Shown: in pieces, positions 7,488 to 56,817 of the stretch
How the letters are laid out: each line of letters starts with the position of its first letter
Position numbering within the stretch: the stretch's first letter is position 1
Assembly: GCF_002288305.1 (NCBI RefSeq)
Contig: NZ_CP016779.1
Coordinates: forward strand, 1,054,001 to 1,118,000
Direction: 5' to 3'
Length of the DNA: 64,000 nt
Source of the DNA: Candidatus Nanopelagicus abundans
GTDB lineage: Bacteria; Actinomycetota; Actinomycetes; Nanopelagicales; Nanopelagicaceae
Notes under the pieces: model-generated
The model's input: only the letters and a program-made list of their open reading frames with translations
Databases searched by the model: none
What the model was told of the DNA's origin: nothing
Made by a program: the position numbers and the translations under genes

Positions 7488-8445
7488 TAGCCTTTATATA
7501 CTCTGCGACCTCTAAAATAATCTCATCTAAGCTCTTCTTTGGTTTCCAACCAATAGCTTTATATATCTTTGATATATCAGGGACCCTTCTGGCTGGCTCT
7601 TCAAAATCATCACCAAAAACATCGCTATGTTTCTTAAAAACTATCTGCGACTTAGAGTCAGTTAATTCAATAACTTTAGCTGCTAAATCTTTTATAGAGA
7701 TCTCATTAGTTGATCCGATGTTATATGCCTGGCCGATGCTCTCTGAAGTACCCATTAAATCATCCAAAGCCACTACTACATCAGAGACCGCACAAAATGA
7801 TCTACTTTGACTACCATCACCATAAACTAATAACGGTTGATTACTAATTGCAGCTTTTATGAATCTGGGTAGAACCATTCCATATGTGCCACTTTGCCCA
7901 GGGCCAACAGTATTAAATAATCTAGCAATTGTTACCTTGAAAGCCTCTTTCTTATTTAATTCAAATGCATAAAACTCATCAATTGCTTTCGCTTCTGAGT
8001 AGCTCCACCTTGCCACCTTTGGCGAACCCAATACTCGATCAGATTCTTCATTTAGAGGCATAATAGGATTTCTTCCATAAACCTCTGAACTGGAGGCTAA
8101 TAAGCTCCTCACATTAAATTTTGATGCGGCATTTAATACTATTTCAGTTCCTTTAATATTTACTTCAAGAGATTTAAGAGGATCGTTGTTTATGCGCTCA
8201 ACACCAAGGGATGCAGCTAAGTGATAACACTTAGTTACAGATTGCATAAGATCTTCGACTAGATTTTGATCTAAGATTGATCCATTAATTAACTCTACTA
8301 AATCACCCTTTAAAGCTCTATTTAAATTCAGCTCTTCAGATCCACTAAAATCATCTAAAACTAATACCTGCTCACTTTTTGATGTTAAGTACTCAATAAG
8401 GTCAGAGCCAATAAAACCGGCCCCACCGGTTATCAAGGTTTTCAC
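7477..8445 (-). CDS. NAD-dependent sugar epimerase/dehydratase (extended SDR)
   Basis: The 322-residue protein has TGGAGFIGS at residues 6-14, ASSSEVYG around 117-124, and the catalytic Tyr149/Lys153 in YSEAK. LFNTVGPGQSGTYGMVLPRF is typical of UDP-glucuronate decarboxylase and GalE-like SDRs. It probably modifies a UDP-sugar for the adjacent polysaccharide locus. A UDP-xylose synthase-like or 4-epimerase role are both possible. It is the first gene of a minus-strand operon that runs through wecA-like, galE and the dehydrogenase. Confidence 0.8.
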   Translation of the reverse strand: MKTLITGGAGFIGSDLIEYLTSKSEQVLVLDDFSGSEELNLNRALKGDLVELINGSILDQNLVEDLMQSVTKCYHLAASLGVERINNDPLKSLEVNIKGTEIVLNAASKFNVRSLLASSSEVYGRNPIMPLNEESDRVLGSPKVARWSYSEAKAIDEFYAFELNKKEAFKVTIARLFNTVGPGQSGTYGMVLPRFIKAAISNQPLLVYGDGSQSRSFCAVSDVVVALDDLMGTSESIGQAYNIGSTNEISIKDLAAKVIELTDSKSQIVFKKHSDVFGDDFEEPARRVPDISKIYKAIGWKPKKSLDEIILEVAEYIKANEI

Positions 8446-8501
8446 AAAATAATTCTATTTGCTGCCTTGTTTAAATCCTACTCTTAGGCTTTTTATAGCC
8501 G

Positions 8502-8538
8502 AAAGGGCGGCCCCCTCAATTAGAGGGAACCGCCCTTT
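8502..8538 (-). terminator. Terminator hairpin after the surface-protein gene
   Basis: AAAGGGCGG (8502-8510) pairs perfectly with CCGCCCTTT (8530-8538). An inner CCCTC/GAGGG stem closes a five-base loop. On the minus strand it begins 18 bases past the stop of the surface-protein gene. There is no clean U tract, which is common for actinobacterial terminators. It separates that gene from the polysaccharide operon downstream. Confidence 0.75.
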
Positions 8539-8555
8539 ACAGGTTTAGAAGTTAT

Positions 8556-10328
8556 TTATCTTTTTAGGATCAACTTCTGTAGTGCTTGGATCTGCTTGTT
8601 AATTGATGCGATTAACGCAACGATCGACTTCAGAACATCAGCATTTGTAACACCACCAGTTGAAGCGATTGAGTAAGGAATTGTAACTGACTTGTTGTAT
8701 TGAGCGCTTGTTGAAGCAACAGCGATCTTTACAGCACCGTTATAATCACCTTCAGCACCAACATTTACTGTGTATGTGTATGTCCATACGCCAGTGCGTG
8801 ATACTGTCTCTGTATCTGTAGTTGCAGGAGTTGTTACGGCTGTCATTCCTGGCATAGCTACTGAGTAGCCTGCTCCTGGAGTTGTTCCGTATGCAGTTGC
8901 GTTTCCACCAGAACCCTTAGCAGTGATTGTAAGAGTTGCTACGTCACCTTGCTTGTAACTTGCTTTATCAAGTGAAGCTGCGTATGTATAAACTGCAGCA
9001 TCATCACAAGTAAGTGTTTCAGTGTTTGATGTGAGCTTCGCACCAGCAGCTGTGTATGCATAGACACTTATGGCCTTTGTGCCGTAGTCATAGCAGGTAA
9101 ATGTTGCATAACCCTTGCCAGATACGTATGGGTTTGAACCCGCACCGTATGACTGACCAAAGTATGAAGCACCATCTGCTGTAACTTCTGCGAATCCACC
9201 AAGTGTGACTCCGCCAGCACCTGATGTAAGTGTGATGCTTGAGATATTTGATCCAAGAACGTCAGCATCTGAAGTACCAAGAGCTGATGTCAGGCGGTTG
9301 CCTGCAGCATCTTTAGCTTCGTATGTGAAGCGACCAGTACTGCCAGGTGCGCCGATACGGGATGCAGCGATTGTAATCGATGCTAGATCTCCAGCGAACT
9401 TAATCGCCTTTGTTGAAAGAAGGACACCGTTAACAGAGACTGTACAAGTAACTGTCGCAGCAACACCTGAAACAGGTTGCTGTACACGAATTGCACCACC
9501 AGTATTTGTTTCACCTGTGAAGCTTGATGTACTGTAGAAGTTGAACACGGTGCTATTAACGCGTGCTGCGTTATCGCATGAGATAACTAGCAAGTTTGTA
9601 GATCCACCGATTGCAATCTTGTATGCATCGTTTGCTTCGATTGCAATGTATGCAGATGCGTCATTTGCAAACAAAGTACGAACATCAAGTGATGTGTCCA
9701 TGTTTGTTGCTGATTGGTCTGTAGTTGCAAGGAATGCAGTAGAAGTAGTAGCTGTATTTGTTTGACGTGCAATCCAGTTAGCTGCTGTATCGATGTATGA
9801 AGAGCTATCTGACACCTGTACATATGAGTTTGCTACAGATGCACCAGATGTACATGATGCCACACCTGTGATGTAGTAAGTCTCAAGTAGTGTTGTTGCA
9901 GCTGTTGATGTATACCAAGCAACTTGAATAGCACCGGCACCTGAAACGCTGAGTACTGGTACAACTGAACTGTCGCCGTCAGTAAGTGTCAAGGTAGTTT
10001 GTGTGGAATCAAACACCATGCCTGCTGTAGCAGCAGTTGCAGACCAGTTAGCTGGACCAGAAATTACAGCATAGCCTGTATCTGCATCTCCACCAGAAAG
10101 TGTGAACTGATAAGTACCACCAACACCGATTGTTGCTGGTGTTGCTACTGCGGTTGGAGTACCAGCTGCGCAGAGACGAGTTGTGTTCACACCTGCTGCT
10201 GCAGTTGTGTTTACGATTTCAGAAGCAGCGAGTGCATCAGCATTTGCTGCTGTTGCAGACAAAAGACCAAAGCCCATCGCTGATACTGCAACAAGCGCGA
10301 TGCGCTTGCGTAGTGTCTTTGTAGACAT
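8556..10328 (-). CDS. Large secreted surface (S-layer-like) protein
   Basis: The protein is 590 residues from an ATG at 10326-10328, which has a clear GAAAGGA site upstream. An in-frame extension to 10415 lacks this and would bury the signal peptide. Residues 1-30 form a Sec signal peptide: KTLRKR, a hydrophobic core, then a cut near ANA/DA. The mature part is rich in Thr, Ala, Ser, Gly and Val with few Lys, Arg or Cys, and looks like stacked beta-sandwich repeats. The C-terminus is a short helix, VLKSIVALIASINKQ onward, that may anchor or oligomerise. Base composition is clearly more GC-rich and the codons look optimised compared with neighbours, suggesting very high expression. An S-layer or main surface protein is inferred; no domain was recognised. 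Confidence 0.75.
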   Translation of the reverse strand: MSTKTLRKRIALVAVSAMGFGLLSATAANADALAASEIVNTTAAAGVNTTRLCAAGTPTAVATPATIGVGGTYQFTLSGGDADTGYAVISGPANWSATAATAGMVFDSTQTTLTLTDGDSSVVPVLSVSGAGAIQVAWYTSTAATTLLETYYITGVASCTSGASVANSYVQVSDSSSYIDTAANWIARQTNTATTSTAFLATTDQSATNMDTSLDVRTLFANDASAYIAIEANDAYKIAIGGSTNLLVISCDNAARVNSTVFNFYSTSSFTGETNTGGAIRVQQPVSGVAATVTCTVSVNGVLLSTKAIKFAGDLASITIAASRIGAPGSTGRFTYEAKDAAGNRLTSALGTSDADVLGSNISSITLTSGAGGVTLGGFAEVTADGASYFGQSYGAGSNPYVSGKGYATFTCYDYGTKAISVYAYTAAGAKLTSNTETLTCDDAAVYTYAASLDKASYKQGDVATLTITAKGSGGNATAYGTTPGAGYSVAMPGMTAVTTPATTDTETVSRTGVWTYTYTVNVGAEGDYNGAVKIAVASTSAQYNKSVTIPYSIASTGGVTNADVLKSIVALIASINKQIQALQKLILKR

Positions 10329-10449
10329 TTTTTTCCTTTCGTTAGTCAGACTCAGGAATTTCCTGAATCTGGCTCGAAGATCTTTCGATCTTCTAATTCC
10401 GTCCTCCCCTGGCACACACGTGTAATGCCAATGAAGTGCGGAAATCTAT

Positions 10450-11406
10450 TTATTCAGTGGGGGCTGGCCCACCATCTGTTTGCTCTAGTACTTGCAGCAT
10501 TAGAGTCACAGTCTCAAGTTGTGCTACGGAAAGTTGCATGTGATCTGCGTACTCAGTAGCGGTAATACTCTTGGTATTAACTACTGGCTTTACAGCAGGA
10601 GCCTCTGGAGTTACAGGAGCTGCAACTACTGGTAGATCTTGGTTATTTGAAAGCTGGGATGAAGAGGTAGTAATAGAGGTATTAGGTTCATTACCAGTTA
10701 AGGAGTTAAGACCCAGGAATGCGGTTAGAACTAGAATAAAGGTGAGCGCGATCTTTGATGATTTACCGGCAAGCTCAGCTGCTTTCTTATAAGTGGTGGA
10801 TAAAAGATCCAAAGCGGTTAGGCCGCGGGCCTCATCAATAACAAGCTCAGATAGAACCTTACGAAGTGAAGCTCTAGCACGAGAGACTGTGTGGCGAACT
10901 GCAGACTCTTTAATACCAAGCTCTTTAGCAATCTCAGCAGTTGAACGTCCTTCAACCTCCCACATAACTAGAGCAGCACGCTCTGCTGGGGAAAGTAAGG
11001 AAAGTGCTTGACGAATAATTGCAGCATCCTCCGCTGCAGATATTGCTAGTGAGTGGTCCCCTGATACCTGCCAGGTTGATTCAACCTCAGCTGAGGCATC
11101 ATCTAGGGCAACAAGATTTGGCCTACGGTTTTCAGCACGGAATAGATCAATACATAGGTTTTCAATTGTGCGGTGAAGATAAGAAAGAGCATGATCATTA
11201 CTTGATAATTCAGGAGCAGCTAGCATGAACTTAACTAGTGCTTCTTGGGTGATCTCTTCAGCCTTTGCCTTATCCTTAACAATCCGATTGGCATGGGCAA
11301 TAAGCTCAGATCGGTTTTGTGTGTAGAAGGATGAAAATTGGGCAACGCTCCAGGAAGCAGGAGTTGAAGACTCAACTGCCTTGGATTTCTTGGCCTTAAA
11401 TGCCAT
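10450..11406 (-). CDS. ECF-type sigma factor with C-terminal membrane span and extracytoplasmic tail
   Basis: The 318-residue protein contains a sigma region 2 (about residues 25-100, with AEEITQEALVKF and YLHRTIENLCIDLFR) and a sigma region 4 helix-turn-helix (about 130-185, with LSPAERAALVMWEVEG and STAEIAKELGIKESAVRHTVSRAR). Ordinary ECF sigmas stop near 190. This one continues with a basic linker, one hydrophobic span (about 217-236, ALTFILVLTAFLGL) and an outside tail rich in Thr, Ser, Pro and Val. It therefore looks like a membrane-tethered sigma factor. AAGGGG precedes the ATG. The surface-protein gene follows on the same strand, 121 bases after its stop, and is the obvious candidate target. 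Confidence 0.85.
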   Translation of the reverse strand: MAFKAKKSKAVESSTPASWSVAQFSSFYTQNRSELIAHANRIVKDKAKAEEITQEALVKFMLAAPELSSNDHALSYLHRTIENLCIDLFRAENRRPNLVALDDASAEVESTWQVSGDHSLAISAAEDAAIIRQALSLLSPAERAALVMWEVEGRSTAEIAKELGIKESAVRHTVSRARASLRKVLSELVIDEARGLTALDLLSTTYKKAAELAGKSSKIALTFILVLTAFLGLNSLTGNEPNTSITTSSSQLSNNQDLPVVAAPVTPEAPAVKPVVNTKSITATEYADHMQLSVAQLETVTLMLQVLEQTDGGPAPTE

Positions 11407-11551
11407 TTTGTTTTGCCCCTTGTTAACCGGTTTTGTCTTACAGAGTCAGCCGTCGCTGCCTCTATTCACCTCTACGCCTTAGGTGGGTGTTTGTAGTGAA
11501 GATAGGACAAATCGGACACTGTCCTTGATTAGTACCTTAACTATACCAAAG

Positions 11552-11624
11552 TGGGCCCTGTCGGGATCGAACCGACGACCCACAGATTAAAAGTCTGTTG
11601 CTCTACCGACTGAGCTAAAGGCCC
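11552..11624 (-). tRNA. tRNA-Lys (anticodon TTT)
   Basis: The minus strand folds as a full cloverleaf. The acceptor GGGCCTT pairs with AGGGCCC, including one G-U. The D arm is GCTC/GAGC, the anticodon stem ACAGA/TCTGT holds loop CTTTTAA (anticodon TTT), and the T arm is GTCGG/CCGAC with TTCGATC. The discriminator is A and no CCA is encoded. It forms the left border of the AT-rich glycan island. Confidence 0.95.
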
Positions 11625-11639
11625 CAGGTGTAAGACTAT

Positions 11640-11673
11640 AAAAAACCTATTTTTAGGCCTAAGTCATAGGCTG
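11640..11673 (-). terminator. Probable terminator after the repeat-bearing glycosyltransferase
   Basis: On the minus strand GCCTA-TGACT-TAGGC is followed by CCTA-AAAA-TAGG and then TTTTTT. The two short hairpins and the U tract lie about 75 bases past the glycosyltransferase stop and before tRNA-Lys. The stems are short, so the call is moderate. Confidence 0.45.
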
Positions 11674-11746
11674 CACCGAGTGAGCATCATATCGGAGTTT
11701 AGATGTGAGTATTGTGACCTCAACACTGCTCTGTAACTAAAAAATC

Positions 11747-13126
11747 TTACCTAAATGAAATTAATTTTGACTTCAGTAACCTGTAAGGTCTAAAAATTTT
11801 CCAGATAGTAGATTTTTGAATATGATCCCGCTCCACTAGTGCATGATCCCGCTCGGCCACTGCATGATCCCGCTCGGCCACTGCATGATCCCGCTCGGCC
11901 ACTGCATGATCCCGCTCGGCCACTGCATGATCCCGCTCCACTAGTGCATGATCCCGCTCGGCCACTGCATGATCCCGCTCCACTAGTGCATGATCCCGCT
12001 CTACTAGTGCATGATCCCGCTCTACTAGTGCATGATCCCGCTCTACTAGTGCATGATCCCGCTCCACTAGTGCATGATCCCGCTCGGCCATAGCAATATC
12101 GCGCTGAACAATCAAAATGTCGTACTCGGGATTAAATTTAAAAATAAATTTGTAAAAATTTACTAAACTTGAAATGTCAATGTTCTTTAACGGATAGACC
12201 TCAGAGAAGGTATTGCTTAAAATTAATTCATTTAAAACTTTTACCGTTGGTCCGATTGTATTTCGAAATGCAAAGTCAACTCTTGCAAAAGGTTTCCCAG
12301 AATCTAAATTTTTTTCTAATATTTTTGTTGAGTGGAATTCCCAAAAATTATCCAACCCACTCTCACGATTTAACTCGAACAACATTTTCTCTTGCCAACC
12401 AACTACTTCGGGATATTCAGATAACATTAAATTTTCCCCATGTTCAACACGCAATAAAAGTCGTAATTTTGTCAAAAATGGCACGTGCGCTATCTGAAAA
12501 AATTTACTGTCGATAGATATCTCTATATCTTCACGGTATCCCTCCAAATAATGTGCTCCAGAAGCAAGAACATAAGGTGCACTTGCACGAAAAATTATTT
12601 TAGAAGGGAAAGTAAGATCAAAAAAATTAGCTTCATTATTTTTTATTTTCTCTTTCAAAATACTGATATTTGGATATGAAATTGATTGTGGCTCAGAAAC
12701 ATAAATGATATCCAAGAATTCTTCGTAGTGCTTAAGCTCAAAATTGTAATTAGAAATCCAATTTCTTATTTCATATCGCACAGATTGGATTTCAGATGGA
12801 ACCCCTTCTAGGAAATCACAAATACTAAAATCTTCACTCTGAACCATAAATTCATCTGCATCAAAGGCATAGATCCAATCATAGTTCCGATTCTGCATAA
12901 GAAATCTAATGGCATGCACGGCAATTGCTTGATGAAATTTAAATTCTTCCTGATAAAAGATATGTATTCTGTTAGGCCAAAGTTTTTGAAGCAGAATTAC
13001 TTCTTCTCTAAAATCTTGATTGCTATCGTGTACAAGTATACAAACCTCGGTGCAGCCATTCATCAATGCATGACTAACGGATATTGAAATCAAAGTACTC
13101 TCATTGCGGGCTAGAACGATCCCCAA
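11747..13126 (-). CDS. GT2-like glycosyltransferase with C-terminal heptad-repeat coiled coil
   Basis: The N-terminal part, starting GIVLARNES, has the GT-A metal-binding stretch FDADEFMV (about residues 91-98) and resembles the Glyco_tranf_2_4 group of GT2-like enzymes. Residues of about 345-435 are thirteen tandem copies of the heptad ERDHALV/ERDHAVA, predicted to be helical coiled coil. The end, KSTIWKIFRPYRLLKS, resembles the cap found after coiled coils in other bacterial glycosyltransferases. The frame has no ATG at its start: TTG at 13124-13126 is the first usual start codon, but the AGGGAG site sits five bases before an ATT at 13136-13138 that would give MQKILGIVLARNES. The gene is AT-rich apart from the repeat. 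Confidence 0.82.
   Translation of the reverse strand: MGIVLARNESTLISISVSHALMNGCTEVCILVHDSNQDFREEVILLQKLWPNRIHIFYQEEFKFHQAIAVHAIRFLMQNRNYDWIYAFDADEFMVQSEDFSICDFLEGVPSEIQSVRYEIRNWISNYNFELKHYEEFLDIIYVSEPQSISYPNISILKEKIKNNEANFFDLTFPSKIIFRASAPYVLASGAHYLEGYREDIEISIDSKFFQIAHVPFLTKLRLLLRVEHGENLMLSEYPEVVGWQEKMLFELNRESGLDNFWEFHSTKILEKNLDSGKPFARVDFAFRNTIGPTVKVLNELILSNTFSEVYPLKNIDISSLVNFYKFIFKFNPEYDILIVQRDIAMAERDHALVERDHALVERDHALVERDHALVERDHALVERDHAVAERDHALVERDHAVAERDHAVAERDHAVAERDHAVAERDHALVERDHIQKSTIWKIFRPYRLLKSKLISFR
11824..12096 (-). repeat. Thirteen-copy 21-bp tandem repeat inside the glycosyltransferase gene
   Basis: Thirteen units of exactly 21 bases run from 11824 to 12096. Each keeps a constant ATGATCCCGCT core (plus strand), and a variable six-base part comes in three forms: CGGCCA, CCACTA and CTACTA. 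They encode Ala-Val-Ala or Ala-Leu-Val joined to Glu-Arg-Asp-His. Units are almost identical at DNA level and more GC-rich than the gene around them, pointing to recent expansion by slippage or recombination. Confidence 0.97.
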
Positions 13127-55566: not shown

Positions 55567-56817
55567 ATGAAGTCTCGAGTAACTCTACTTGTTTTCATAA
55601 TTTTAGTTGCTTGTATTTCAGGAAATTCTTTCACAACTGCAAGTGAGACTTCATGGCAGAAGCCTATTTTAAAGTCATTTACATTCACGCCAACTGAAAT
55701 TGAACTCTCTTCTGAAAATACCGAGGTAGAAATTTTACTGACAGTTACACACCCAAGTGGTATTTCAAATCAAAGCATTGATGTTTATTTGGAAAACTCC
55801 ACTTATGGTGCGAATTTCATTTACAGCACAAAGTTATTTAGAACTGAATCACCTATCAATTCAAGTTTAACTATTGTAAATTTCAAAGGATCACTTAAAT
55901 TAGATCCGACTATTTTTCCAGGCGTTTGGATATTCTCATCTGACTCTGTTACGGCAAACCCGATTCTAGATTCACCAAACTTTGTACCAAAGTCTTCTAC
56001 CTTTACGCCACCGCCGTTTAGAGATTTTGTGGGTGCCGAGGCAGGATTACTCATTAGACGCCTCGGTAATCTTTCATTTGATTTTCAGACATTTGTGGGA
56101 CCTTCACATCCCGCAAACAGTTACTTTGAAGATGGAAAGCCGACTATTTTTCCAATGATGAGGCCGATATGGAGAGTTAAAGAGTCATACGATCCGAAAG
56201 ATTTTTTTCAGCTACGCACTAATCGCACTTCACTTCAGATTACCTCCTTAACCCCATTAACTTGCTCAGTCAATTCATCTATTTTGAACTTTATTTCGAC
56301 TGGAGATTGTCAATTTAAAGTGTTTACGCAAAAAACAACTGATTTCGTTGCAAAAGAGCTTTTTTTAAATGTAGAAATACTTCCTGAGCGAAACAAAGTC
56401 AATTTAAATCTCCCCACAATTCCAACTCAACTGGTAACAGAATTCCCAAAAACTATTTCCCGCTCGGTAATTACATTAGACGGTGCAGAGGTATCTCCAG
56501 TATCAGATACTCCTACAGTCTGTTCGGCGTTTGGAAATGTACTGACAATGTATTTAACTGGAAATTGTGTACTTTCATATTCAACTGTTGCGACTGAGTC
56601 TAGATTAGCTTCAGGTATTATTAAACAAGCGTTTATAGTCCTTCAAGAAGGCGTGGTGGAACCTCGCCCATCTCCTACCGCATCTCCTACCGCATTTCCT
56701 ACCGCATCTCCCAAGTCACCCACTAAAAATCGAATTATTTGCGCTAAAGGTAAAACTAGTAAAAAAGTAAGTGGTGATAATCCAAAGTGCCCTAAGGGCT
56801 ATAAGTTAAAAAAGTAA
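55567..56817 (+). CDS. Secreted cell-surface protein with Pro/Thr linker and C-terminal Cys-Lys module
   Basis: The 416-residue protein has a signal peptide (residues 1-27: KSRVTLLVFIILVACISG) after AAGGGGGAG. The mature part seems all-beta (Ig-like stretches with paired Cys, for example TCSVNSS...GDCQF and PTVCSAFGN...GNCVL). A 12-base repeat gives SPTASPTAFPTASP at about 371-384. The end, ICAKGKTSKKVSGD then NPKCPKGYKLKK, is a two-Cys basic module also seen in outline in the protein at 38542. It is probably displayed on the wall. Function unknown. Confidence 0.75.
   Translation: MKSRVTLLVFIILVACISGNSFTTASETSWQKPILKSFTFTPTEIELSSENTEVEILLTVTHPSGISNQSIDVYLENSTYGANFIYSTKLFRTESPINSSLTIVNFKGSLKLDPTIFPGVWIFSSDSVTANPILDSPNFVPKSSTFTPPPFRDFVGAEAGLLIRRLGNLSFDFQTFVGPSHPANSYFEDGKPTIFPMMRPIWRVKESYDPKDFFQLRTNRTSLQITSLTPLTCSVNSSILNFISTGDCQFKVFTQKTTDFVAKELFLNVEILPERNKVNLNLPTIPTQLVTEFPKTISRSVITLDGAEVSPVSDTPTVCSAFGNVLTMYLTGNCVLSYSTVATESRLASGIIKQAFIVLQEGVVEPRPSPTASPTAFPTASPKSPTKNRIICAKGKTSKKVSGDNPKCPKGYKLKK
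56669..56712 (+). repeat. Short 12-bp tandem repeat encoding a Ser-Pro-Thr-Ala linker
   Basis: CATCTCCTACCG is repeated, with small changes, between about 56669 and 56712 (three and a half copies). It encodes SPTASPTAFPTASP, a flexible wall-spanning linker before the C-terminal basic module. Confidence 0.8.

Follow-up and report, generated by a model that had tools for sequence, protein, structure and literature searches.

A candidate self-activating operon joins a membrane-tethered ECF sigma factor, a structured RNA leader and a hypervariable surface protein in the Nanopelagicaceae

Introduction

Nanopelagicaceae-type actinobacteria are among the most abundant bacteria of freshwater lakes and have genomes near 1.2 Mb with few regulators. 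What, then, does a membrane-anchored sigma factor do beside the gene for a large secreted protein in such a genome? The original prediction for this locus was a one-component envelope circuit, in which the outside tail of the sigma factor senses the surface layer and the freed sigma domain drives the layer gene. Following it up, we think it reasonably likely, judging from sequence, that the two genes form a self-activating operon composed of an ECF-like promoter, a tethered sigma factor, a structured leader and a surface-layer-like protein. If so, a dedicated tethered sigma factor has been kept for one coat operon despite the small genome and the few regulators, and the coat may be tuned by both this factor and an RNA leader.

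The window analysed here is a stretch of 64,000 nucleotides (bases 1054001-1118000 of a complete 1.16 Mb genome; Table 1). The named relatives of its sigma gene occur in Ca. Planktophila lacus, Ca. Planktophila versatilis and freshwater isolates such as IMCC26103 and IMCC25003. Thus, we place the genome in the Nanopelagicaceae, the family of Ca. Planktophila, which comprises freshwater actinobacteria.

Table 1. Features of the sigma-surface locus, with positions counted from the first base of the window.
Feature	Position	Strand	Basis
tRNA-Lys (upstream neighbour, outside the circuit)	11551..11624	-	ARAGORN, Rfam
Conserved upstream element TGTCCGATTTGTCC	11505..11518	-	Type A loci only
Candidate ECF-like operon promoter, CTACAAA (~-35) and GCGTAG (~-10), ACAA-N14-CGTAG	11472..11496	-	Type A conservation, PWM
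Hairpin in predicted sigma-gene 5' UTR, stem CAGC/GCTG, GACG tetraloop	11442..11463	-	Covariation
ECF sigma factor, 318 aa	10450..11406	-	ORF, Pfam, NCBIfam
Membrane-span codons, residues 219-237	10696..10752	-	Hydropathy
Outside-tail codons, 81 aa, Thr/Pro-rich	10453..10695	-	C-terminal to span
Structured RNA leader, subtype 2	10329..10449	-	z-score -6.67; covariance-model R1 match 4e-10; family covariation
Outer stem TTTCCG/CGGAAT, enclosing the P2 hairpin	10396..10444	-	Fold
P2 hairpin with bulged base and ACGU tetraloop (AC-ACGU-GU)	10410..10430	-	Alignment, fold
Hairpin GAAGATC-GAAA-GATCTTC, in place of variable P3	10376..10393	-	Fold
P4 hairpin AGCC...GACT, just 5' of the ribosome-binding site	10344..10374	-	Alignment, fold
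Ribosome-binding site GAAAGGA	10334..10340	-	Unpaired in predicted fold
Surface protein of 590 aa, hypervariable and Ig-like, predicted to be secreted	8556..10328	-	ORF, CAI, profile, model
Conserved C-terminal helix codons, residues 562-589 (NADVLKSIVALIASINKQIQALQKLILK)	8562..8645	-	Model helix, pLDDT ~90

Conservation of the gene pair

A membrane-tethered ECF sigma gene and a large secreted-protein gene do lie side by side in the window, and the pair is real and conserved. A sigma profile searched against 296 family genomes (an order-level search gave the identical 296) returned 95 matches, and 60 of the 108 near-complete genomes are represented. All 73 homologous loci with enough flank (230 nt or more beyond the sigma stop codon) contain the second gene, with its leader and start codon found 119-200 nt past that stop, so the linkage expected in sister genomes holds. 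The secreted protein is complete at 61 loci, where its length is 562-918 aa. Viral contigs contained no relative, and literature searches of open-access papers returned no report of the operon or of its leader.

Many metagenome contigs end at or just past the sigma gene (for example L079, L103, L136 and L138), as expected where the surface gene differs among strains, and many assemblies break at the surface gene itself. In several relatives, too, the tRNA-Lys gene precedes the sigma gene. On the far side of this tRNA gene in the window, a glycosyltransferase-like ORF (11747-13126, minus strand) encodes a C-terminus composed of about 15 copies of a seven-residue unit (ERDHALV or ERDHAVA). A Cys-Lys motif ends secreted proteins encoded at window positions 55567-56817 (plus strand) and at positions 3179-6548 of the relative L041 (CAKGKTSKKVSGDNPKCPKGYKLKK and CVKGKTTKRVTAANPKCPTGFKKK), and is recurrent in relatives.

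The sigma factor and its outside tail

The sigma protein matches Sigma70_r2 (6e-13) and Sigma70_r4_2 (3e-15) in Pfam and lies over the NCBIfam cut-off for sigma70-ECF; regions 2 and 4, with no other sigma domain required, identify it as an ECF factor. The genome holds three region-4 matches. A single hydrophobic span with a mean hydropathy of 2.0 is preceded by four Lys or Arg residues and followed by none, which puts the basic residues on the cytoplasmic side. Both the span and this positive-inside pattern are kept in all sigma homologues checked, confirming that the sigma factor carries its own transmembrane span. The Thr/Pro-rich character ascribed to the outside tail is likewise borne out, with 11 Thr and 8 Pro among its 81 residues, which are also rich in Val, Ala and Ser.

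Most relatives have a much larger outside part of 200-270 residues, and the window and the genomes G005 and G157 have only about 80-90. In an AlphaFold2 model of a long-tail relative (L091, 30 sequences) the sigma domains are followed by a helix through the span (198-235), then by roughly 60 residues of disordered linker before a compact beta domain (301-456, pLDDT mostly > 90). This outside domain has no Pfam match, and in the window the short tail stands in place of a beta domain of about 150 aa that most relatives carry. Because the window has lost the folded domain and keeps just 81 residues, a sensing mechanism shared by all these tails is weakened as an idea. The rows of the VIA-align alignment span the sigma part only. 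Direct evidence of a protease cut site, or of a tail that inhibits the sigma domain, was not seen.

Tethered ECF systems are known in kind. ECF52 (SCO4117 of Streptomyces coelicolor), ECF48 and ECF53 have a C-terminal span and an outside region, and autoregulation and proteolytic release have been proposed for them (PMC5826349, PMC8999054). The window protein resembles them as an actinobacterial ECF factor with a C-terminal membrane helix and an outside region. ECF52 is defined by a zinc-finger (anti-sigma) domain (PMC5826349) and a carbohydrate-binding module, whereas here a Pfam search of the window protein and 30 homologues gave no zinc-finger family, none of the 30 homologues matched a carbohydrate-binding module, and the window's tail contains no domain; a beta domain or a short tail is present instead, so we do not file this sigma factor under ECF52. 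It also differs from ECF52 in that its operon is dedicated and includes a surface-protein gene and an RNA leader. IutY (ECF243) of Pseudomonas putida is likewise a sigma factor fused to a membrane-spanning C-terminal part, and is activated by proteolysis (PMC8999054), but its Gram-negative partners in iron-starvation cell-surface signalling are not seen here. Against this background, the sigma-surface operon is a new variant and its leader a new candidate cis-RNA.

The surface protein

A GTG start listed for the surface gene at 10415 falls within the leader; the true start is the ATG at 10328, after which comes an N-terminus that by eye resembles a signal peptide. The codon adaptation index relative to ribosomal genes is 0.705, the highest of the 56 ORFs in the window and close to that of EF-Tu (0.742), compared with 0.594 expected from the amino acids of the protein and 0.654 for the highest of 1000 simulations. 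The optimised codons noted in the original prediction are thus genuine; for the abundance implied by "dominant", codon bias serves as no more than a proxy.

A profile of 26 family members has weak matches to invasin-type and S-layer Ig-like chains (5e-5 and 0.009), and five members match Big_1. The family is predicted to be secreted and beta-rich, with Ig-like features. Foldseek matches of the window protein's low-confidence model (mean pLDDT 57) include S-layer and adhesin folds (4uic, 4aq1, 6hhu), at low TM values common to many Ig-like proteins. The predicted secreted, beta-rich Ig-like chain is reminiscent of the S-layer proteins SbsB, SbsC and Sap; unlike these, it has no known S-layer anchor domain. 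The middle part of the protein is hypervariable, and identity to G005 drops from 91% in the sigma protein to 36% in the surface protein. The C-terminal helix of the window protein is common only to G005 and G157.

A structured RNA leader

The strongest feature of the locus, overlooked in the original prediction, is the 120-200 nt between the two genes; this stretch starts no more than a few bases from the sigma stop codon and runs to the surface-gene ATG. An alignment of 49 leaders gives hairpins P1, P2, a variable P3 and P4, then GAAAGGA and the ATG. Across 35 named pairs, 94.9% of cells can pair as opposed to 75.7% in shuffles, both sides have changed in 26 of the 35, and not one of the five covariation measures was matched in any of 500 shuffles; the structure was derived from these same, related sequences, so the shuffle figures are not probabilities. 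Sliding the structure by 1-3 columns leaves at most 53% pairing. The compensatory changes include G-U pairs, which indicates pairing as RNA. There is little doubt, on this comparative evidence, that the leader is a covarying, structured RNA.

The window has its own subtype, in which an outer stem around P2 replaces P1, and the covariance model still detects it (Table 1). That model finds the leader in 61 of the 108 near-complete family genomes, mostly those with the sigma gene; as it is undetected in the other 47, the circuit is not universal. No Rfam family matches the leader, either at the gathering score in the window or at E-values up to 1-5 at 11 loci. A covarying leader without an Rfam entry is a concrete new RNA to probe.

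Stems vary freely and loops hardly at all. The ACGU loop of P2 is present in all 49 leaders (within GC-ACGU-GC in most relatives), and CCGGA of P1 in nearly all, a pattern that suggests recognition. The chief alternative is that the leader is a passive element for stability or processing, its hairpins protecting a long-lived coat mRNA. It does sit between a gene of low need and a gene of high need, its stems are strong with the ribosome-binding site unpaired, and its coding strand has no terminator-like site. Near-invariant loops on changing stems are not what such a protective element would predict, and we regard this alternative as possible but unlikely. If the loops instead bind a factor that sets the stability or translation of the surface mRNA, the leader could raise or tune output so that a shared transcript yields little sigma factor and much surface protein.

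Long mRNA leaders are known from S-layer genes, such as slpA of Lactobacillus and Thermus. The leader described here is like the slpA leaders in being a long 5' leader before the gene of a presumably abundant surface protein, and unlike them in its multi-hairpin fold, its conserved loops and its location inside a sigma-surface operon.

Three further candidates were rejected. The leader frame is open into the surface gene at many loci, but the palindrome lies in different frames in the window and in G013 and the ribosome-binding site precedes the ATG, which argues against a coding extension. End changes in a kissing-loop palindrome (GCACGUGC) are equally explained by 2 bp closing the ACGU tetraloop. 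Hairpins P5 and P6 in the first codons are 96% and 91% paired, but mostly invariant, with 92% and 87% in shuffles. The operon has another small RNA element, the hairpin in the predicted sigma-gene 5' UTR, seen in the window and in L039-L151, with an invariant GACG loop and a stem 87% paired versus 52% with shuffled arms.

Promoter and proposed control

In PWM scans of the window and some other loci, the candidate promoter ahead of the sigma gene scores 20.4 (at 11498), and the next best site in the window 5.0; the best score along the sigma gene and leader, read on their coding strand, is -7.9. The shared promoter motif anticipated upstream of the surface gene therefore did not materialise: the ECF-like promoter occurs only ahead of the sigma gene, from where the sigma factor would drive the surface gene within its own operon. 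Sigma-70-like sites are absent from 8400-11700, where 5.2 were expected, suggesting one self-activating operon. On the points where the original prediction was most exposed it has stood, as the linkage is kept, the span is conserved and a housekeeping-type promoter for the surface gene is not found in that interval.

Two promoter layouts exist. Type A reads GCGACAA-N14-CGTAG with TGTCCGTTTTGTCC further upstream, and type B CAACATTTG-N10/11-GTGTCTT; in the rows compared they correspond to two sigma clades, including in one genus that holds both. This match fits autoregulation by the sigma factor, although promoter and sigma gene are physically adjacent and co-inheritance alone could match their types. 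The upstream element of the window is the only perfect match to TGTCCGATTTGTCC in the whole genome. TGTCCGWTTTGTCC, conserved ahead of the type A promoter in the window (11505-11518) and in relatives of that type, makes direct as well as inverted TGTC repeats with the -35 region; judged by eye, reversed copies of it precede some type B sigma genes and some extra surface cassettes.

The sigma factor could instead sense a cue other than the coat (a glycan, an ion, phage or envelope stress) and control genes elsewhere, the surface gene being one target. Several targets are usual for known ECF factors, the surface locus adjoins sugar-nucleotide and glycan genes, and the long-tail domain lacks a Pfam match. 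The gap in promoter scores within the window points the other way, as do the tail-matched surface C-termini described below and a strict motif with 7 of its 11 matches in 13 genomes at the sigma-surface operon, although the site in the window itself and several other loci escaped that strict pattern, which therefore bounds the regulon poorly. We consider a multi-target role rather unlikely.

Improbable, in our judgement, is a linked but uninvolved sigma factor beside a constitutively transcribed surface gene. Many real promoters in this group escape simple scans, and a coat protein could well be expressed at a high, steady level; the missing sigma-70-like sites, the leader beginning so close to the sigma stop codon and the conserved ECF-like promoter upstream of the sigma gene all speak against it.

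An autoregulated tethered sigma factor driving one operon thus seems the most likely arrangement. The sigma factor would activate its own promoter and co-transcribe the surface gene, while the outside tail would report the state of the coat or envelope. A conformational change could free the sigma domain, or clipping by an outer protease and then by a site-2 protease, for which the genome has a single M50 candidate. The first part of this model is drawn from comparative sequence; tail sensing, proteolytic release and leader tuning are proposed by analogy with ECF52 and IutY (PMC8999054, PMC5826349).

Modularity and extra surface cassettes

G157, from another genus, has a sigma core 94% identical to the long-tail sigma factors of its own genus and 81% identical to that of the window. 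Its short tail, its leader of subtype 2 and its surface C-terminus resemble those of the window instead, with 64% identity over the last 60 surface residues (28-37% for others). Thus, tail, leader and surface anchor appear to travel together, independently of the sigma core, in a pattern resting on two lineages. This co-travel of tail type and surface C-terminus, like the single M50 protease, is compatible with tail sensing and proteolysis.

Several genomes encode further surface genes without a sigma gene, mostly lacking P1 and P2. Most of these copies have only the 3' half of the leader, and they match the main copy from mid-P3 through the signal peptide. P4 identity between main and extra copies is 0.94 within a genome and 0.69 between genomes (1 in 20000 permutations), indicating recombination between them. 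Conservation of the leader simply as DNA, where crossovers would exchange surface-gene cassettes with the extra copies, would account for the shared segment and for the P4 identities, but it is very improbable given compensatory changes with G-U pairs, the lack of P1 and P2 in most extra copies and a window genome without a second copy of the surface gene.

A wider version of the operon model, which we offer as speculative and doubtful, is that an undescribed cis-RNA family and a one-operon ECF circuit jointly set the coat of the Nanopelagicaceae. An anchor-matched tail would read the coat, the leader would respond to a second signal, and its 3' half would mark the crossover boundary at which cassettes are swapped into one expression site. 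With conserved tail, leader and anchor types on the one hand and a hypervariable coat on the other, control and variation of the surface become directly testable. At some loci (L183-L188, L190 and L196) the extra surface copies lie near the main site, often on the opposite strand, and share its 5' and 3' ends; inversion or cassette exchange is possible there.
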